Notes under the pieces: generated by a model | Seen by the model: the letters and a program-made list of their open reading frames with translations, nothing else | Databases searched by the model: none | Told to the model about the DNA's origin: nothing | Shown: positions 14,680 through 26,930 of the stretch, piece by piece | Numbering within the stretch: the first letter of the stretch is position 1 | Layout: the number at the start of each line of letters is the position of its first letter | Made by a program: the position numbers and the translations under genes | Assembly: GCF_002443295.1 (NCBI RefSeq) | Contig: NZ_BAOS01000040.1 | Location: forward strand, 1-45,954 | DNA from: Candidatus Scalindua japonica | GTDB taxonomy: Bacteria; Planctomycetota; Brocadiia; Brocadiales; Scalinduaceae | DNA: 45,954 nucleotides | Reading direction: 5' to 3'

Positions 14680-15618
14680 CTAAATATCACATACCAGGCC
14701 GTTTAAATGTTCTTCTACGCATTTTGGTAAATCCAGCAAGTGATATCCACCCTCCAGGCAGGAAACAACTCTCCCTTCGCAGCAATCATTGGCTATGCTT
14801 CTCGTAAATTTCGTTAATGTATTGAAATCAGAAGCTTCTAAACTCAGACCACTTATTGGGTCTAAACGATATGCATCGAAACCGGAAGAGATCAACACAA
14901 ATTGTGGTTTGAAGCTTTTAACTCTTTTCTTCATCATATCCTTAAAAATTTTAATATATTCCTGAGGTTGTGTGTTATATGATAAAGGTACATTTATTGT
15001 AAAACCAGAGCCACTGCCTCTTCCTGTCTCTTCTTTTCCACCTGTACCCGGGTAAAAGGGGTATTTGTGCATGGAGAAATACAATACCGAGGGGTCATCA
15101 TAAAAGGTATCCTGTGTTCCATTACCATGGTGCACATCCCAATCAATTATAACAATTCTATCGATATTGTATCTTGATTGAATATACTTTGCGGCGATTG
15201 CAACGTTATTAAATAGGCAGAAGCCCATACTTCTTGTTGGTGTGGCGTGATGTCCAGGAGGACGAACTAAACAGAAAGCATTGCCTGTCTTTTTGTCCAT
15301 TACTAAATCAATGGCGGTGAGCAGTGCTCCTGATGCATATAGAGCGGCTTCATATGAATCAGGAGAGACATAAGTGTCAGGGTCCAAATGTCCACCACCT
15401 GTTTCGGCAGTTTCAGCAATCTGTTCTATTTGACTGATTGTGTGAACCGCAGAGACTTCTTCTTTAGTTGCTGCTCTTGGTTTCTTAACATCCAGTGTTT
15501 GCCAGATATTAGCTGAACGGAGGTACTCAATAGTATTTATTAATCTGGCCGCATTTTCAGGATGATTGGCACCAGTATCATGTTTCAAATAAACATCATC
15601 GTAAATAAGAGTTGTCAT
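14680..15618 (-). CDS. Histone deacetylase/acetoin utilisation-like zinc amidohydrolase
   Basis: A 312-residue member of the arginase/deacetylase fold. Visible motifs are HPENAARL near the N-terminus, LVRPPGHHA (catalytic His pair, about residues 118-126), IIDWDVHHGNGTQ (zinc-binding Asp/His), GFDAYRLDPI (second metal Asp) and a C-terminal LEGGYHL glycine/tyrosine motif. It should remove acetyl groups from lysine side chains or acetylpolyamines in the cytoplasm. AAGGATACC precedes the ATG. Substrates of bacterial members are mostly unknown. The window also encodes a lysine-rich H1-like tail that is a conceivable target, but that is speculation. Confidence 0.88.
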   Translation of the reverse strand: MTTLIYDDVYLKHDTGANHPENAARLINTIEYLRSANIWQTLDVKKPRAATKEEVSAVHTISQIEQIAETAETGGGHLDPDTYVSPDSYEAALYASGALLTAIDLVMDKKTGNAFCLVRPPGHHATPTRSMGFCLFNNVAIAAKYIQSRYNIDRIVIIDWDVHHGNGTQDTFYDDPSVLYFSMHKYPFYPGTGGKEETGRGSGSGFTINVPLSYNTQPQEYIKIFKDMMKKRVKSFKPQFVLISSGFDAYRLDPISGLSLEASDFNTLTKFTRSIANDCCEGRVVSCLEGGYHLLDLPKCVEEHLNGLVCDI

Positions 15619-17458: not shown

Positions 17459-18790
17459 TTACTTCCTGACGCTTAACATCTCAACAAATCCCTCTGTCCT
17501 TGTGGCGATCTGTCCGGACATATAGTTTGTATCATCAACGCAATCGCCATCAAGATTTAAAAGGGGGATGCCCTCTTTAGCCATCTCTGCTTTTACTGTA
17601 GGTATTGCAGCGTTGTTTCTTCTGCATCCCCAGGTTGAAAATGCGATTATACCGTCTACATTGTAATCTCTGGCTAAAGTTTTTATTACGTGTAGTCTTT
17701 TATCTAATGGTCCGTTGTTGTGATTGGATATAAGCTTTCGAGCGAGGCTTTCGTAAGGATTATCAGGGTCTAATTTGTCCCAGTAGACGTGATTAATTTC
17801 CTCAAAAACTATTTTAGTTTTTCCCGCATTTTTGATTTTATCAAAGACGTCTGCTTTAAAATATGGTTTTAGTTCCAGCCAGAGCAACCTGATCTCTTTT
17901 TCATCGGCCACTTCTCCGTTCTCTCTTCTTGTCGCAATTATCTCTTTGAGTTCATCTGCCATTGAGGTGTAAAAATCTACCGAATATTGTGAGCCGGCCA
18001 AGTAGTGGCTTGGGACCATAAACCCAAGGCCGTCGCCGCCTGCAAGAGGGGAGAGTGGGTCCTGTCTTATACGGTTCAACTCAATCATTTTCTCTCTTGC
18101 TTGATTGGACAAATCGATGGCTTCTGTAAGAGCGTGTTTCTCCATCTTTTTTCCGGTAGCTTTTTCGAGGCATTTTGTTAAGCTGATTAATTGATTTGTC
18201 AGAAATTTAACGGAGTTGTCATTCATCTCGTAAGGAACATCTACTATCATATTCTGTTTTCCCGTTATAGATTCGCAGATCTTTATTGTCTTTATGTTGC
18301 TGTCACATATCGTTGAGGTTCCTGCGAGAAACAGGGGGCGAGGATAGACACCCATGTAAGCATTTCCTAATGCGGTTCTGTGGAAAGAGCAAACATCTGT
18401 TGGTATAGCGGCCAGATCAGCTTCAGTGAGAGAATGAGCACCTTGTCCAAATTTTGAGCAGAGTGCTGCCGCTATTTCTAACGAGAAGGGATGCAGTTTC
18501 ATTGCAAAAATAATCTCTGATGGTACAAAAAGAGTTGTCCATATTGAACCATTTTTGTAGGCAAGATTAAAAAGTTGAACTATGCTTTTAGATAGAATAT
18601 CAAAAGACTTTAAATCGTCTTTGCCTATACCTTTGCCGGTTACTTTTGAATATAAATTCAAAAATCTGAAAAGTTCTCTAACTAAATATGGTGTCAGCTT
18701 TTTAGCAAACCTCTTTTTTGTGCTCTTTATATTGATCATGACTTTTTTTGCTTGCCTGGTTTCAATAAAATCTATATCAATGACTGGCAA
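17459..18790 (-). CDS. 2-hydroxyacyl-CoA dehydratase / benzoyl-CoA reductase-like subunit (HgdB/BcrC or double-cubane type)
   Basis: A 443-residue protein of the HgdB/BcrC family. Conserved cysteines that could hold a [4Fe-4S] or double-cubane cluster lie in DVCSFHR, TSTICDSN and STWGCRRNN; the C-terminus has the family-type LLNLDGDCVDD segment. It would receive electrons, raised in energy by ATP hydrolysis, from the activator encoded immediately upstream. The substrate could be a hydroxyacyl-CoA, an aromatic CoA ester or a small molecule as in double-cubane proteins; the sequence does not decide. Start TTG at 18790 is the longest frame; an in-frame ATG at 18739 would remove 17 residues and neither has a good Shine-Dalgarno. 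It is co-directional with, and 72 bases after, the fused activator gene. Confidence 0.8.
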   Translation of the reverse strand: MPVIDIDFIETRQAKKVMINIKSTKKRFAKKLTPYLVRELFRFLNLYSKVTGKGIGKDDLKSFDILSKSIVQLFNLAYKNGSIWTTLFVPSEIIFAMKLHPFSLEIAAALCSKFGQGAHSLTEADLAAIPTDVCSFHRTALGNAYMGVYPRPLFLAGTSTICDSNIKTIKICESITGKQNMIVDVPYEMNDNSVKFLTNQLISLTKCLEKATGKKMEKHALTEAIDLSNQAREKMIELNRIRQDPLSPLAGGDGLGFMVPSHYLAGSQYSVDFYTSMADELKEIIATRRENGEVADEKEIRLLWLELKPYFKADVFDKIKNAGKTKIVFEEINHVYWDKLDPDNPYESLARKLISNHNNGPLDKRLHVIKTLARDYNVDGIIAFSTWGCRRNNAAIPTVKAEMAKEGIPLLNLDGDCVDDTNYMSGQIATRTEGFVEMLSVRK

Positions 18791-18862
18791 AATTAATTTG
18801 ATATTACCGGAAATGTTTCCTGTCGGGTATTGGTGGCTGAGAAAATTATCAGGTGTTTTTAA

Positions 18863-20764
18863 TCATGCAGTCAGTTGCTCTATAAATGCTTCAATCCTGG
18901 TTTTTGTCTGGCCATCACTTTTAGCGCTATCACAATTAATATGGAGTAGAGGAATGTGTTTTTTCTCAAACTCTTCCTTGACCAGAGGATAATCATATAA
19001 AGTGTGATCACAGAATTTTAAGGAGTGGTAGATAGCTCCACTTATTGCTCTTCTTTCAATAAGGGAGACTATGCTTTTGATCCTTCCGAATACATCAACC
19101 ATCCTTGAGCAGGGAGATCTTTTTAAATATCTTTCAGATATCGACTTGTAAGGGTTATTCGTTATTTCTACTTTTTTGTCAAAATACCTGCTGCCGGTAC
19201 ATAGATCTTCTGATACAACCCTGGCGCCTGCATCTTCAATCATTTTGATTATCTCTTCATTTTCCAGTATACTTCCCCAGATGAAGAGTTTTGGTACCGG
19301 GTCTTTTTCAGGAATCTCACCTATTTTTTTCATCAGGGAAGTGAGAGATGATACATAGTCCTGAAATTTTTCAGGTGCCGCGTTTATACCCTTCTTCAAT
19401 AAGGTGTAGATATCATAACCGGAATACCCAACGTATCCGTTCCATTGCTTTTGTAAAAATTCCATTACGTTATCTCTCATTCCATTGTACAAAGAGATAC
19501 TTCGATTGATGTCTTCATTCTGTATTTTAAGTTTAAAGTGATTTTCCAATTTTTCTTTAAATGTTTTAATTTCGCCAGCAAAATATTGTACGGATGCTTC
19601 GTCACTGTTTTTTGGAATATCAAGGAAATAATTAAATTTCTCTCCTTTGTCTATTCTTATCCACGCATCGTAAAGTCTCCTCATGCCATCACAGGAATTA
19701 GTAAACACAATCCCTTCAAGATGGTCCAGGTTTCCCGCTACTTTTTTATCGGTAAGCGTTTTTATATACGAACATATATTACTGCAGAGAAGGGATTCAC
19801 CAGCCGCTCCATTTTCATCGTTTATACCTTTTATTCTTACGGGGTGGTATCCTGCCGCTCTAATAATTTCGACAGGTGTATAAGTGCAGAAATAACCAAT
19901 CTTCGGCATCCTGCCGTCGTCCAATTGAACATCGGCTATTGAAACTTTATTGTTGTCGGTAGTTTGAGTGGTTTCAACTTTTGTGGCAGCGCTTGCATTT
20001 TCCAAGGCAATTAAGGCTGCACCCAGAGCGCCAATTATCTGCGGTTCTTCAGCTATTTTTATAGTACAGAGCAGCTTCTTTTCAAGTTCACGCACAACTC
20101 CTATATTCTTGGCAACACCACCGGTCATTACAACAGATTCTTCCAGCCCAATCCTTTTTGCCTGTCCTGATACCCTTTTGGCGATAGAGATATGCAGCGC
20201 TTTGCATATGTCAGGGGTCTTGTGGTCCGCTCCAATGAGGGAAACTACCTCTGATTCAGCAAAGACTGTACACAAACTGCTGATAGATACATTATCTTTT
20301 CCAGTAAGAGAGAGTTCTCCCATTTCATCAAGTTCGATCTCCAGCGTCCTTGCCATTACCTCAAGAAATCTTCCTGTGCCTGCCGCACATTTATCGTTCA
20401 TGGAAAAGTCAAGAACATTACCTTTCGCGTCCAGCTTTATGGCTTTACTGTCTTGTCCGCCAATGTCTATTACAGTTCTGGCATCCGGGAAGAAATAATT
20501 AGCGCCTTTAGCATGACATGTGATCTCCGTGACAACTTCGTTTGCAAAAGGGACTTTGATTCGGCCATAACCGGTAGCAACGATATAATCTAAGTCTTTT
20601 GTTTCCAGCTTAGTAGCATCTAAGATATGTTTAAAGATTTTATCACACGCCTTTTTACTGCTGGCACCTGTCGCAATGACTTCATAGGCTACAATTTCCT
20701 TTTTTTCATTTACTAATACAGCATCTGTTGATAAAGAGCCTATATCTATTCCAAGTGTTAACAT
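18863..20764 (-). CDS. ATP-dependent activator (BadF/HgdC) fused to a dehydratase-like (HgdB-family) domain
   Basis: A 633-residue two-part protein. Residues 1 to about 260 are an ASKHA-fold ATPase: LGIDIGSLSTDAVL, TVIDIGGQDSKAI and VVMTGGVAKNIG are the nucleotide-binding motifs. NDKCAAGTGRF and SSLCTVFAESEV carry the two cysteines that normally bridge one [4Fe-4S] cluster between two subunits. Residues from about 285 onward are an HgdB-like domain with GYFCTYTPVEIIRAAGY, LCSNICSYIKTL, FTNSCDGMRRL, RSPCSRM and SLKFCDHTLYD. Together with the next gene it forms a complete ATP-driven electron-transfer enzyme: activator, subunit one (fused), subunit two (separate). AGGAG precedes the ATG, and a good promoter lies about 75 bases upstream. 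Confidence 0.85.
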   Translation of the reverse strand: MLTLGIDIGSLSTDAVLVNEKKEIVAYEVIATGASSKKACDKIFKHILDATKLETKDLDYIVATGYGRIKVPFANEVVTEITCHAKGANYFFPDARTVIDIGGQDSKAIKLDAKGNVLDFSMNDKCAAGTGRFLEVMARTLEIELDEMGELSLTGKDNVSISSLCTVFAESEVVSLIGADHKTPDICKALHISIAKRVSGQAKRIGLEESVVMTGGVAKNIGVVRELEKKLLCTIKIAEEPQIIGALGAALIALENASAATKVETTQTTDNNKVSIADVQLDDGRMPKIGYFCTYTPVEIIRAAGYHPVRIKGINDENGAAGESLLCSNICSYIKTLTDKKVAGNLDHLEGIVFTNSCDGMRRLYDAWIRIDKGEKFNYFLDIPKNSDEASVQYFAGEIKTFKEKLENHFKLKIQNEDINRSISLYNGMRDNVMEFLQKQWNGYVGYSGYDIYTLLKKGINAAPEKFQDYVSSLTSLMKKIGEIPEKDPVPKLFIWGSILENEEIIKMIEDAGARVVSEDLCTGSRYFDKKVEITNNPYKSISERYLKRSPCSRMVDVFGRIKSIVSLIERRAISGAIYHSLKFCDHTLYDYPLVKEEFEKKHIPLLHINCDSAKSDGQTKTRIEAFIEQLTA

Positions 20765-20913: not shown

Positions 20914-20947
20914 AAAGGCTTATAAGGTTTGTACCTTATAAGCCTTT
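20914..20947 (-). terminator. Rho-independent terminator of the NrdD-like gene
   Basis: Two perfect 15-base arms (20914-20928 and 20933-20947, AAAGGCTTATAAGGT on the plus strand) flank a four-base loop. On the minus strand the hairpin is followed by a run of T (20911-20916 reversed). It lies about 100 bases after the minus-strand stop at 21044. Confidence 0.85.
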
Positions 20948-21043: not shown

Positions 21044-21499
21044 TTATAACGAATCAATCATATCCAGGCGGTCATTCTGGAAAAGCTGGCTTTGGCCAGT
21101 AAGTCCGTAGCTGCCATTAGCACGATCTCTCAACTCTCCTACTTTTGACTTGTTCCAGTTGTTGACTCTGGAATAGTAACCAACAATTCTTGTAATACCG
21201 TTTAGAACGATAGGTGCCCTGTCGTTCTGGATTACGCTCACGAACTCTTGGGCTTTGTCAGAATCTGTAACTTTTCGTACGATTTCATCGATAGACACCT
21301 CAACGTATGCTCCTTCAATACCTTCGGTCTTACTGTAGTCTCTGATTACAAAAACCTCTTCTTTTGATGGTAATGCTGTGCCAATAATTTCAAGGTCTGA
21401 AGACATCTCTACAGACTCTACAAAAAGAGTTAAACTCTTCTCGATTTTTTCGGCAACTCCAGTGTTTTCCTTTAATACTGTCACTATATTCCCCTTCAT
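21044..21499 (-). CDS. Stand-alone NrdD-like glycyl-radical module (small protein)
   Basis: A 151-residue protein (shorter by five if the GTG at 21484 is used). Its second half matches the very C-terminus of class III ribonucleotide reductase NrdD: ITRIVGYYSRVNNWNKSK followed by ELRDR, where NrdD has the glycyl-radical loop R-V-x-G-Y...W-N-x-G-K...E-x-x-D-R. The zinc-binding CxxC pairs that precede this loop in NrdD are absent. The N-terminal 95 residues are alpha/beta and unrecognised. It may be a radical-domain spare part like GrcA for pyruvate formate-lyase, or a regulator. The GTG at 21484 has the better Shine-Dalgarno (AAGGGG, 6 bases). It has its own terminator and no co-directional partner nearby. 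Confidence 0.55.
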   Translation of the reverse strand: MKGNIVTVLKENTGVAEKIEKSLTLFVESVEMSSDLEIIGTALPSKEEVFVIRDYSKTEGIEGAYVEVSIDEIVRKVTDSDKAQEFVSVIQNDRAPIVLNGITRIVGYYSRVNNWNKSKVGELRDRANGSYGLTGQSQLFQNDRLDMIDSL

Positions 21500-22124
21500 G
21501 AAAAATTACAAAAAATTAAAACAATAAATCACGCCTTTTACTGATTAACTAATCCTTTCAAATATATCTCCTTTTATGGAGGTTGAAAGTAGATTGAAAT
21601 TTACTGTTAGAGCAAAACAGTATCAGGACAGGCAATTAAGTTTTCGAGTGGCTAATATACTGTTTATGAGTGAAAAGTCAAGTACGAATTTTGAGAAACA
21701 TACAAAATATTGTACCTTTGTGATATTTAAACACAACATTTATAGTCGCAAAGACATTTTATTACAAGAGTTACAGTATGGGGTGAATGTGCTAAGATTT
21801 AATAGATTTTAATATATTTACCTGAAAAACAGGCAAAAAGAAAAAATATTATGCGCATTATATAGAAACTGAAAAATAGAAAAAATAGTTTGTGGCTGTG
21901 TAATGCATTATAAACAAAGGAGATACCGTTTGTAGTTCTGGTTTGTTTTTTATGATCTTGCGTACTTTTCTGAAACTGTTTCAAAGGCAGATGATATTTT
22001 AGGAGAGACTAAATCTGTACCAGGGAAATTATTAACTGTTCAGGTATGTTGATGTTTTTGTAACACGCAGTAAACGCGTGTGTTGTGGTTTTCTTGTCTT
22101 TTCAGGTGTGTTCCCGGGAGGCTT
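21500..22124. other. Intergenic region without a gene
   Basis: About 625 AT-rich bases between the NrdD-like gene and lon. Short open frames on both strands have unnatural composition and no ribosome-binding sites. It presumably carries the promoter of the NrdD-like gene at its left end, but I see no convincing -35/-10 pair. No terminator for lon is obvious. Confidence 0.4.
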
Positions 22125-24566
22125 CTAACGCCCGGGTTGCAATTTTTGCTGTTTCTTTCTCAGTTTTTTATTTCCAAAGACAATCGGCAATATTTGATCA
22201 ACGTTTTCTACAAATTTGAACGATAACTTCTCTTTTGCTTTATCAGGAACGTCTATTAAATCCTTTTCGTTTCTTTTTGGTAGGATAACGGTAGTAATAC
22301 CTGCTCTTTTTGCCGCCAGGACTTTTTCTTTAACCCCGCCAACCGATAAAACTCTTCCTCTTAGCGTTATTTCTCCTGTCATTGCAACATGAGGATTTGT
22401 TGCTGCTTTTTTAAATAGTGATATTAGAGAAATTGCCATGGTAACACCTGCTGAAGGTCCATCCTTGGGAATAGCCCCGGCAGGAACATGGATATGGTAG
22501 TCATATTTAGAGAAATCTTCTATTATAATGTTCACGGTATTCGCCTTAGCACGGACATAGCTCATTGCAGCCTGGGCCGATTCCTTCATGACATCTCCAA
22601 GCTGACCTGTTAACGTTAGCTTTCCGCTTCCCGGCATCCTGGTAGATTCAATAAATAGTATCTCTCCTCCTGATTGGGTCCATGCCAGGCCGGTTGCTAC
22701 TCCTGGTTCAATAGACCTGTCCGCAATTTCAGAGAAGAATTTTATGGGACCGAGAAACTCACTAATGTTTTTGGAGTTCACTTTAACTGTCTTTGTATTA
22801 CCTGACGCAACTTCTTTGGCTACTTTTCGACAAACTGTGCCAATTTCACGTTCCAGATTTCTCAGCCCGGCCTCTCTGGTATAATCACTTATTATAATCC
22901 TGACAGTTTTATCATTAATCTTTAAATTATTGCTTTTTAATCCGTGAGCTTCGAATTGTTTTGGGACCAGGTACTGTTTTGCAATTTCAAGTTTTTCTTC
23001 TTTACTATATCCCGGCAGGTACAACACTTCCATCCTGTCTCTAAGTGCGTGTGGTATAGTATCTAGAATGTTGGCTGTTGTTATAAACATTACTTTTGAT
23101 AGATCAAATGGGACATCAAGATAATGGTCTGAAAATGAATAATTCTGCTCGGGATCGAGTACTTCTAGTAATGCGGATGAAGGATCTCCATGAAAATCTG
23201 ATACCAGTTTGTCTACCTCATCCAGCATGTATACAGGGTTATTTGAGGAGACCTTACGGAGTCCTTGAATGATTCTACCCGGGAGCGCGCCTACGTAAGT
23301 ACGTCTATGGCCTCGTATTTCAGCTTCGTCACGAATTCCTCCCAATGACATTCTGATAAATTTTCTTCCCATTGCTCTGGCTATTGACTTGCCAAGAGAT
23401 GTTTTGCCTGTTCCAGGTGGGCCGACAAAGCATAGGATAGGTCCTTTCATGTCTTTTTTCAGTTTCCTGACAGCCAAATATTCAAGAATCCTCTCCTTGA
23501 CCTTTTTCAAGTTGTAATGGTCTGTGTCTAAAACCTTTTGAGCACTGGGAATATTCAGGTTGTCTTTAGTAGATGTTGACCAGGGAAGCGCTATTAACCA
23601 GTCAAGGTACGTGCGTGCTACAGTATATTCTGCTGATGAAGGGTGCATTCTTGAAAGGCGGGAGAGTTCCCGGTCAGCTTCCTTTTGAGCTTCTTCCGGT
23701 AACTTTGCCTGCTTTAATTTTTTTCTCAATTCTTTTACCTCTGCAGCCTGATCATCTCCTTCGCCAAGCTCTTCCTGTATCGCTTTAAGCTGTTGGCGTA
23801 GATAATACTCGCGCTGTCCTTTGTCCATTTCGTTCTTAACTTGTGTTTGTATCTTACCGGCAAGTTCTAATACCTGCATTTCATTGTTAATGAAAGTATT
23901 TATCTTCTGTAATCGTTCTTTTACATTTGTTGATTCAAGTATTTGCTGTTTTTCAGGAACACTTATATTCAAGTGAGAAGATATTAAATCTGAAAGTTTA
24001 CCCGGATCATCTATGTTAACTGTAACTATTTTTAATTCTTCCGGTAAGTTGGGAGCGACGGATATCATGCGTGAAAACTGATTCCTGGCATTTGTTGCCA
24101 GAGCTTCAGTTTCAACGTCTTCTTTATCTATTACGTCCTGTAATACATCTACTTTTGCTTTAAAGAAAGGTTCTATTGATGTGAACTCTTTAATATGTAT
24201 TCTGGATATTCCTTGTACAAGCATCTTTGCCGTATCATCGGGCATCCTTAACATTTGCAATACAACAGAAGCGGTTCCGTATTCATACAGATCTGATGGC
24301 ACCAACTTATTTTTTTCTTCCTCTTTATGTGTAACAAGTGCGACAAATCTGTTTGTCGCTAAAACGTTATCAAGCAGCTTAAGTTCTTCATCTGTTGATA
24401 CTCCCAGAGCAGTGACCATTTGAGGGAAAACGACAACATCTTTCAGTCCAAGAACAGGCAATTCATCAGGTACCGTCAAAGATTCCGGCTCAAATTGCCC
24501 GGGAATCTTTGCTTTATCAAGTTCCGTTTTTCCAGATTTAATAGGATTTTTCTTTTTTGCTTTCAT
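22125..24566 (-). CDS. lon: ATP-dependent protease Lon (LonA)
   Basis: An 813-residue cytoplasmic AAA+ serine protease that degrades misfolded and regulatory proteins. It has the LonA N-terminal substrate domain (LPVLGLKDVVVFPQM onward), a coiled-coil linker (about 200-300), Walker A GPPGTGKTS (about 378-386), Walker B VYMLDEVDK, and the protease domain with the catalytic serine in KDGPSAGVT (about 703) and the lysine in GGVKEKVLAAKRAG (about 746). It starts 12 bases after the hsp20 stop, so the two are likely one heat-shock unit. Length and motifs are complete. Confidence 0.96.
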   Translation of the reverse strand: MKAKKKNPIKSGKTELDKAKIPGQFEPESLTVPDELPVLGLKDVVVFPQMVTALGVSTDEELKLLDNVLATNRFVALVTHKEEEKNKLVPSDLYEYGTASVVLQMLRMPDDTAKMLVQGISRIHIKEFTSIEPFFKAKVDVLQDVIDKEDVETEALATNARNQFSRMISVAPNLPEELKIVTVNIDDPGKLSDLISSHLNISVPEKQQILESTNVKERLQKINTFINNEMQVLELAGKIQTQVKNEMDKGQREYYLRQQLKAIQEELGEGDDQAAEVKELRKKLKQAKLPEEAQKEADRELSRLSRMHPSSAEYTVARTYLDWLIALPWSTSTKDNLNIPSAQKVLDTDHYNLKKVKERILEYLAVRKLKKDMKGPILCFVGPPGTGKTSLGKSIARAMGRKFIRMSLGGIRDEAEIRGHRRTYVGALPGRIIQGLRKVSSNNPVYMLDEVDKLVSDFHGDPSSALLEVLDPEQNYSFSDHYLDVPFDLSKVMFITTANILDTIPHALRDRMEVLYLPGYSKEEKLEIAKQYLVPKQFEAHGLKSNNLKINDKTVRIIISDYTREAGLRNLEREIGTVCRKVAKEVASGNTKTVKVNSKNISEFLGPIKFFSEIADRSIEPGVATGLAWTQSGGEILFIESTRMPGSGKLTLTGQLGDVMKESAQAAMSYVRAKANTVNIIIEDFSKYDYHIHVPAGAIPKDGPSAGVTMAISLISLFKKAATNPHVAMTGEITLRGRVLSVGGVKEKVLAAKRAGITTVILPKRNEKDLIDVPDKAKEKLSFKFVENVDQILPIVFGNKKLRKKQQKLQPGR

Positions 24567-24578
24567 TGGAGTACAAAT

Positions 24579-24992
24579 TTAATAGCTGATTTTAATAGAT
24601 ATTGTAGAATTAAACGCTTTTTCGGCTTTTGGGATAGTTATTACAATAAATCCATTCTCATATGTGGCATGAATATTGTTCGCGTCAACTTGTTTTGGAG
24701 TTTTTATTTTTCTTTCAAAGTATCCGTGTCTAATTTCAACTTGATGAAAACATACTTTATGATGGGTAGTGTCGTTGTCTCTTTTTCCGTTTACCGTGAG
24801 AATCTGATCAGAAAACAGTACTGATATATCTTCTGGCTGGAGGCCGGAAACAGCCATTTTTACTATAATATTTTTTTCAGTCTCATATACGTCAGTGGGC
24901 GGTTGCCATGGAGTTGATGGGGCAAAATCATGGCTTTTTGCCATAAAAAAGAACTCTTCAAAGAGTTTTTCAATACTACTGTGCTTTGCCAT
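24579..24992 (-). CDS. Small heat shock protein, Hsp20/alpha-crystallin family
   Basis: A 137-residue holdase. The alpha-crystallin domain (about residues 28-125) shows the PPTDVYETEKNIIVKMAVSG opening and the closing ENGFIVITIPKA strand (the A-x-x-x-n-G-v-L signature). It prevents aggregation of unfolding proteins in the cytoplasm. It precedes lon by 12 bases on the same strand. A TATAAT (minus strand, 25020-25015) lies just upstream and could serve as its -10, giving a very short leader; the -35 is poor. It lacks the C-terminal IxI anchoring motif in classical form. Confidence 0.9.
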   Translation of the reverse strand: MAKHSSIEKLFEEFFFMAKSHDFAPSTPWQPPTDVYETEKNIIVKMAVSGLQPEDISVLFSDQILTVNGKRDNDTTHHKVCFHQVEIRHGYFERKIKTPKQVDANNIHATYENGFIVITIPKAEKAFNSTISIKISY

Positions 24993-25215
24993 TAAATTGT
25001 TTAATTAATGAGAAATTATAAAGTAGATAACACGTCGGTTCAGTGAGATGTTGTCCTGATCACCTGCCAGTGCCGGATCTCGGACGGGGTGTTTGAGTGA
25101 TACTCTTTTGTCTCAATAGCGGCCTAACTTAATATTGTCCAATATAACAACGACTGCACTGTCGTGGCTCCAAATATAAACAAAATATAACAGTTTTGCT
25201 AAGTCCATTCAATAA

Positions 25216-25247
25216 AAAAGCCGACCTGGGTTTTCAGGTCGGCTTTT
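25216..25247 (-). terminator. Rho-independent terminator of groEL
   Basis: Perfect 13-base arms (25216-25228 and 25235-25247; AAAAGCCGACCTG on the plus strand) flank a six-base loop, with T-rich sequence on both sides. It is 40 bases beyond the groEL stop on the minus strand. Confidence 0.92.
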
Positions 25248-25286
25248 AAAAAAGCTTTAGTATCAATTGCGTTGCGGGACGGAATT

Positions 25287-26930
25287 TTAATACATATCTC
25301 CGTATCCACCATATCCACCACCACCTGCCGGCATTGCCGGGGCCTTCTTTTTCTCAGGTACTTTTCCTATCATTGCGTCTGTGGTTAGCAGAAGCGTTGC
25401 TATGCTTGAAGCGTTCTGGATCGCAGTCCTTACCACTTTCGTTGGATCTACAATTCCCTGCTTGACCATATCACAATATTTAGCTTTGCCTGCATCATAA
25501 CCTTCGTTTCCTTCGGAATTAATTACTTTTTCTACAACGATTGGTGCATTATCTCCTGCATTTTCTACAATCTGACTTAAAGGTGCGGTCAGAGCCCTAC
25601 GAACAATATCAACACCTGTTGCCTCGTCTCCCTTGAGCTTCAGCGCTTTCAGCTTGGCGATTGCTCTGATAAGCGCGACACCACCGCCAGGTAATATACC
25701 CTCTTCAACGGCAGCTCTGGTTGCATGCAATGCGTCTTCTACCCTTGCCTTCTTCTCTTTCATTTCACTTTCAGTTGCCGCTCCAACGTTTATCAGCGCA
25801 ACTCCGCCGGTCAATTTTGCGAGTCTCTCTTCCAGCTTCTCTCTATCGTAATCAGAAGTAGTGCCCTGGATCTCTGTTCGTATCTGTTCGATTCTTCCCT
25901 GTATTGCCTTGCTGCTTCCTGCGCCCTCTATAATAGTTGTATTGTCTTTGTCAATCTCAATTTTCTTCGCCCTGCCAAGGTCTTTGAGCTCGATACTTTC
26001 AATATTTATACCTAAATCTTCAAAAACTGCCTGTCCGCCGGTAAGTGTTGCGATGTCCTCTAGCATCGCTTTTCTTCTGTCGCCAAAACCAGGTGCCTTT
26101 GCAGCAGCACATTTTAATGTTCCACGAAGCTTGTTAACGACAAGGAGGGTTAATGCCTCTCCTTCAATGTCTTCAGTGATTATCATTAGTGGTTTGCCAC
26201 TTTGTGCGACTTTTTCCAATACCGGCAATATTGTCTTTGCTGATGAAATCTTCTTTTCATGAATGAGGATGTAAGGATCTTCCAGGATAGTTTGCATCTT
26301 CGCTGGATCTGTTACAAAATATGGAGAGAGGTATCCTTTATCAAATTGTAGACCTTCAATCCATGTTGACTCTGTCTGGAGACTTTTCCCCTCTTCAACT
26401 GTAATAACACCGTCCTTACCTACTTTTTCCATCGCATCAGCGATTATATTGCCTATTTCTGTATCATGGTTAGAAGATACGGTACCTACCTGCTCTATCT
26501 CTTTCCTGCCTTTGACAGGAATACTCATTGCCTTTAATGTATCTACTACTTTATCAACGGCTTGCTCAATACCTCTTTTGAGTGCCATTGCATCTGAGCC
26601 GGCAACAACATTTTTCAAACCTTCCTGGAATATTGCCTCTGCAAGCACTGTGGCGGTAGTAGTCCCGTCACCGGCTACATCGCTAGTCTTTGCGGCTACA
26701 GACTTTACCATTTGCGCTCCGATGTTTTCTATGTGGTCTTCCAGTTCTATCTCTTTGGCAACGGTTACGCCGTCTTTAGTAATTGTTGGTGACCCAAAAC
26801 TTTTTTGCAGTATTACGTTCCTTCCTCTTGGTCCAAGAGTTATTTTGACAGCAGACGCAAGTTGATTAATGCCTCTCTTTAAAGCATCAAACGCATCCTG
26901 GTCATAAACAATTTTTTTCTTATCAGCCAT
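25287..26930 (-). CDS. groEL: Chaperonin GroEL (Hsp60)
   Basis: A 547-residue type I chaperonin forming the double-ring folding cage. It shows the ATP-site segments [10 protein letters not shown] and [11 protein letters not shown], the apical-domain [15 protein letters not shown], and the [13 protein letters not shown] signature. The C-terminus is [11 protein letters not shown], a variant of the usual GGM-type tail that lines the cavity floor. AGGAGG precedes the ATG. No groES lies next to it, and no CIRCE (HrcA) operator is visible upstream, so it may be a second groEL copy or regulated differently. Confidence 0.96.

Follow-up and report, generated by a model that had tools for sequence, protein, structure and literature searches.

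A stand-alone glycyl-radical protein of Candidatus Scalindua japonica as the probable radical subunit of a two-chain class III ribonucleotide reductase

A precedent for the supply of a glycyl radical in trans is GrcA/YfiD, a spare part for pyruvate formate-lyase (PFL). GrcA/YfiD and Y06I of phage T4 are small proteins in which an N-terminal part of their own is joined to the C-terminal radical loop of the parent enzyme. The radical is installed by the activase of the parent, and such proteins are also carried by phages (PMC8683613). Only the spare parts for PFL were considered validated by the authors of that work, who regarded those for other glycyl-radical enzymes as speculation (PMC8683613). 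Two further systems are relevant: the class III ribonucleotide reductase NrdD (PF13597), in particular the lineage with a CCR motif in its finger loop as in the Thermotoga maritima enzyme (PMC4493059), and the split class II enzyme NrdJa/NrdJb, likewise a ribonucleotide reductase in two chains (PMC9669993). No description of a split NrdD, or of a spare part for NrdD, was found among the open-licence papers in PubMed Central (PMC). Here, a gene on the minus strand (21044..21499) of a 45,954-nucleotide stretch of the Candidatus Scalindua japonica genome (contig NZ_BAOS01000040.1; hereafter the window) is described. Its product of 146–151 residues very probably carries the glycyl radical for a class III ribonucleotide reductase that is split into two chains.

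The comparison with GrcA/YfiD, drawn already in a preliminary description of this DNA, is apt, as here too a separate N-terminal part is joined to a copy of the loop of a parent enzyme. By descent the new protein is no GrcA, the parent being NrdD here and PFL there, but it would work like one. The N-domain of YfiD is disordered, whereas that of the stand-alone protein is predicted to be folded. A further difference is that the radical glycine has disappeared from the parent NrdD in Scalindua and in other lineages, which would make the part obligate, and that the gene has NrdR-type operators; an obligate form of spare part would be new. With NrdD itself the system has in common the loop sequence and the NrdG operon, and the zinc site and the finger loop remain on the catalytic chain. 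It differs in that the radical glycine lies on a separate polypeptide encoded elsewhere. Compared with NrdJa/NrdJb, the separate piece is the radical-bearing loop of a class III enzyme.

The open reading frame was confirmed and translates into 151 residues as called, an N-terminal alpha+beta domain followed by the NrdD radical loop. The conserved start is probably the GTG at 21484, which gives 146 residues. Two observations favour it: the codons ahead of it make up a Shine-Dalgarno sequence, AAGGGG in this genome and AAGGAGG in relatives, and an ATG further upstream is missing from one relative. The sole credible relation in Pfam is to PF13597 (NRDD; E 4.6e-5), with a score of 22.7 bits that lies below the gathering score of 26.2; protein residues 99–127 align with profile positions 533–560 of 562 (the last 28). 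The NCBIfam NrdD model matches as well (E 0.0013). In both scans the loop was matched by NrdD models only, with no homology to the C-terminus of PFL, and a PHROGs family for the protein was not found. The loop (TRIVGYYSRVNNWNKSKVGELRDRANGSY; 21107..21193, minus strand; residues 103–131) contains a perfect NrdD radical loop, TRIVGYYSRVNNWNKSK, with Gly107 as the radical glycine. Across 41 homologues, Gly107 and the elements TRIVGY (TRIVGYY in the stand-alone protein), NWN, SK, EL, R and Y are invariant, and the stand-alone loops of relatives are about 60–70% identical to the loops of intact NrdDs (E ~1e-10 to 1e-12). The preliminary description had read the protein as a stand-alone glycyl-radical end of NrdD with neither catalytic barrel nor CxxC zinc motif, a reading that depended on a profile relation to NrdD and on a glycine conserved in orthologues. 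Both were found; the match is confined to the short C-terminal segment given above, and the protein has no cysteine at all. The zinc cysteines would be missing because the zinc site stays on the partner NrdD. The stand-alone protein is thus not itself an NrdD.

The N-terminal domain (about residues 10–98; 21205..21470, minus strand) is modelled by AlphaFold as a long helix, three strands and two helices, with a predicted local distance difference test score (pLDDT) above 90 over about residues 20–90. Searches for fold relatives with Foldseek against the PDB, with VIA-align 2 and in BFVD gave none that was convincing: the highest Z in VIA-align was 4.6, and Foldseek returned nothing with E <0.001. 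This modelled domain is proposed as the obvious candidate for docking.

A search of the same genome with PF13597 returned one other NrdD, encoded in an nrdR-nrdD-nrdG operon; the NrdD and NrdG2 models score above their curated cut-offs. This is the full NrdD with a damaged glycine loop that the preliminary description had proposed as a check. Its 803 residues retain the ATP-cone, the barrel, the finger-loop CCR motif and the zinc site, while the radical loop is destroyed (IKRSASQDRVNNWDMTK) and the chain ends in ...CxxC..CxxC..YSIKRSASQDRVNNWDMTK. The C-terminal end reads NLYSIKRSASQDRVNNWDMTKMQELVNR, against NVYGISRIVGYFSRINNWNKSKIGELADR in intact relatives. No glycine occupies the radical site in either of two alignments, where Ala or Ser stands opposite, depending on gaps. 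Since the Scalindua NrdD has no radical glycine, the stand-alone protein would be the sole radical carrier.

The distribution of the two proteins was followed in Brocadiales and neighbouring members of their class and in a sample of 392 genomes of the phylum; the evidence consists of sequences, mostly metagenome-assembled genomes (MAGs), and families carry working labels, of which f1 denotes Scalindua and relatives and f5 Brocadiaceae. The stand-alone protein is present in all 17 genomes of f1, in 8/9 of f2 and 2/2 of f4, and, in the sample of 392 genomes, also in f41, f47, f51, f72, f88 and f100. At least eight planctomycete families combine loss of the NrdD loop with a separately encoded loop protein. 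All NrdD C-ends examined in f1 are loop-less, and in the tree set the 13 sequences complete at this end all have S, T, L or A at the radical position. The glycine is also absent from the NrdDs of f4 and f3 (C) and from six of the eight in f2, where the position varies between S, N and D. The loop has been lost outright in f41, f47, f51, f72, f88 and f100, whose stand-alone proteins are short and have the N-domain in common; in f51 the loop-less NrdD and the stand-alone protein come from different genomes. An intact NrdD and the stand-alone protein are both present in f5 and in the genomes G065 and G415, and neighbouring class members (f7, f8, f9 and G062) have an intact NrdD only. The stand-alone protein was found in 40 of 43 genomes with a loop-less NrdD and in 22 of 37 with an intact one (p = 4e-4, a figure inflated by relatedness); counted by family, the values are 9/10 and 3/12 (p = 0.004). 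Loop status requires at least five changes on a tree of the NrdD core. The loop-less NrdDs keep the CCR motif in 43 and the zinc motif in 44 of 45 cases, and nrdG adjoins nearly all of the loop-less nrdD genes that have flanking DNA.

Three other observations were made in the course of this survey. Family f57 (G175, G240; L263, L264) was considered as a counterexample and rejected: its radical Gly is replaced by Asp (TRIADYF) and it has no stand-alone protein, but its NrdD homologue also lacks the CCR and YCxxH motifs, which makes a paralogue that has decayed or diverged the likelier reading; it may be a repurposed one. Two Brocadiaceae loci, L022 (G034) and L031 (G057), hold second, divergent stand-alone copies that group with or close to the viral copies by sequence, have no NrdR-like boxes and are possibly prophage genes. 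Another NrdD subtype, at L249:17-2372 (G143), L250 (G337) and L251:1-1063 (G389), has its loop in a separate open reading frame of about 59–64 codons directly downstream of nrdD, in an overlapping frame in G337. These may be another, adjacent kind of NrdD split or frameshift errors.

The NrdD core of f1 is under purifying selection (pN/pS 0.11, pN 0.068), and its tail is relaxed, with a pN of 0.214 against 0.061 in intact f5. The stand-alone loop of f1, at a pN of 0.062, is under the same degree of constraint as the tail of an intact NrdD; purifying selection has moved off the NrdD tail and onto the separate loop. In five genomes that are 93–95% complete and encode NrdD (G002, G008, G010, G019 and G021), PF02867, TIGR02504 and an RTPR-type query detected no reductase of class I or II, and matches to TIGR02504 and RTPR were likewise not found in G236, G206 and G147 (f41, 91–92% complete). 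The RTPR-type query, which recovered in Brocadiaceae an RTPR-like class II enzyme overlooked by PF02867, matches only the ATP-cone of NrdD in f1, f4 and f41. In those near-complete genomes NrdD is apparently the sole reductase, gaps in the MAGs being possible.

NrdR boxes follow the consensus acaCwAtATaTwGtgt. Upstream of the stand-alone gene lie two tandem elements that resemble such boxes on the minus strand (21700..21746), ACTATAAATGTTGTGT at 21746..21731 and GTACAATATTTTGTAT at 21715..21700, each with 12/16 matches (24/32 in total, p ~0.005), and this is the best-scoring such pair in the window. An alignment of 14 Scalindua upstream regions places both directly upstream of a conserved promoter, TTGACT-16-TATATT (21654..21681, minus strand; 10/12 matches), although the number of predicted promoters is itself at chance. 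The spacing of 31 nt start to start, about three helical turns, and the position at a promoter are those of the NrdR regulon; in the NrdR structure, the conserved C/G pairs of the two boxes, at 9/18 and 40/49, are also 31 apart (PMC9110341). The same tandem arrangement stands upstream of nrdR-nrdD-nrdG. A significant box pair was found before 40 of 52 chromosomal stand-alone copies tested (f1 14/14, f2 6/6, f4 2/2, f5 8/13, f41 7/8) and before 1 of 21 viral copies, which served as an internal control; the phage copies therefore appear to escape NrdR. These sites suggest that the stand-alone gene would be bound and co-repressed with the nrdRDG operon by NrdR. At its other end the gene does have the strong terminator of its own that had been described, a stem of 15 pairs with a loop of 4 and a T-tail (20914..20947, minus strand); the region yielded two terminators, where 0.5 would be expected.

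The scan of viral contigs gave 41 IMG/VR records. The stand-alone protein is encoded in all of them but L180, which has an ordinary NrdD instead, and thus in 40. NrdD was undetected in 39 of the 40, which are mostly fragments. In L142 the gene stands among those for terminase, portal and head morphogenesis. A phage record of 81.6 kb (G132, IMGVR_UViG_3300031566_000011) has both an NrdD that carries intein-like insertions and terminates directly behind the zinc site (...CSKCGTMVKGLIDYCENCNSGDVEGIEYYQ; L182:1480-4206) and, elsewhere, a stand-alone loop protein of 97 residues (L174:4869-5162), a recurrence of the NrdD split in a further lineage. Protein similarity suggests that the viruses infect anammox bacteria. 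The L142 terminase, sought in 39 Brocadiales genomes as a link between phage and host, had no match there, which is uninformative, and tblastn against annotated phages gave no match either.

The gene borders in the window on a fused acyl-CoA dehydratase activase/HGD-D protein and a second HGD-D protein of double-cubane type (17459..20764). Most Scalindua loci keep this neighbourhood, and in G021 (f4) the activase is again a neighbour. Upstream lies a GroEL-Hsp20-Lon cluster (22125..26930) that is syntenic in Scalindua, and a histone-deacetylase-like protein is encoded at 14680..15618 (PF00850, E 2e-98).

In the mechanism proposed here, the radical SAM enzyme NrdG would place the radical on Gly107 of the small protein and not on NrdD. 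The two chains would form a physical complex in which the loop enters the barrel of the glycine-less NrdD, with its finger-loop cysteines and zinc site, and the radical would be handed to a finger-loop cysteine for the reduction of ribonucleoside triphosphates. Docking onto NrdD, NrdG or both is probably the role of the N-terminal domain. NrdR would repress both loci together, and phage copies without detectable boxes could plausibly sustain the synthesis of deoxyribonucleoside triphosphates (dNTPs) in the host. In Scalindua and several other lineages the protein would be the sole radical site, and in Brocadiaceae, with their intact NrdD, it is probably a GrcA-like repair spare.

Several observations weigh against the split-subunit reading. 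The stand-alone gene is not adjacent to nrdD in bacteria, and C. Scalindua japonica also encodes a class II reductase. In two NrdDs of f2 (G023 and G027) the radical position is occupied by Gly-Tyr, with degenerate sequence around it. Three genomes have lost the loop with no stand-alone protein detected: G017 (f2, 96% complete, class II NrdJ present), G018 (f3, 77%) and G167 (73%). Independent pairs on the NrdD tree are too few, which leaves the phylogenetic test without power, and box 1 of Scalindua is without the conserved C of NrdR boxes. In the AlphaFold model the loop is unfolded (pLDDT below 50 at residues 102–112), a poor model being expected if the partner folds the loop.

Of the other explanations, the one with a precedent in GrcA (PMC8683613) is that the protein serves solely as a spare for the repair of NrdD damaged by oxygen, with NrdD normally using its own radical. 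The coexistence of both proteins in f5, G065 and G415 fits this, but it fails in Scalindua, f4, f41 and others because the NrdD there has no radical glycine at all, and it is an improbable account of the whole family. The preliminary description had left the choice between a spare radical domain, a decoy and a regulator; the GrcA-like spare stands, although in Scalindua the protein would go beyond a spare, and the data speak against a decoy or a mere regulator. The class II enzyme in the same genome and the decayed paralogues of f57 would suit a loop-less NrdD that is dying or repurposed, with a stand-alone protein that is unrelated or regulatory, for instance by titrating NrdG. Yet the low pN/pS of the core, the retention of finger-loop and zinc cysteines and of NrdG, the near-complete genomes with no other detected reductase, the NrdR-like operators common to both loci and the phage with a truncated NrdD plus a loop gene all make this very improbable. 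Hardly credible is a role as radical bearer for some other glycyl-radical enzyme: the distance from nrdDG and the adjoining 2-hydroxyacyl-CoA-dehydratase-like pair could be read so, but the loop is of NrdD type and not of PFL type, the operators are NrdR-like, and the protein co-occurs with NrdD loop loss. It is likely, if a little less so than the split itself, that planctomycetes and phages have more than once evolved a class III reductase which obligately depends for its glycyl radical on a subunit encoded elsewhere and controlled by NrdR, and that NrdR-free phage copies act on the host enzyme.

The family is a strong candidate for a spare part of NrdD, an essential anaerobic enzyme of DNA-precursor synthesis, and suggests that in nature a spare part became obligatory. 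If true, this would break the rule of a radical borne by NrdD itself, make a radical transfer between two chains open to experiment, and give a route from the repair of oxygen damage to a two-subunit enzyme. It would also explain the inactive-looking NrdD of many anammox bacteria and point to a phage gene that may raise the dNTP supply of its host.
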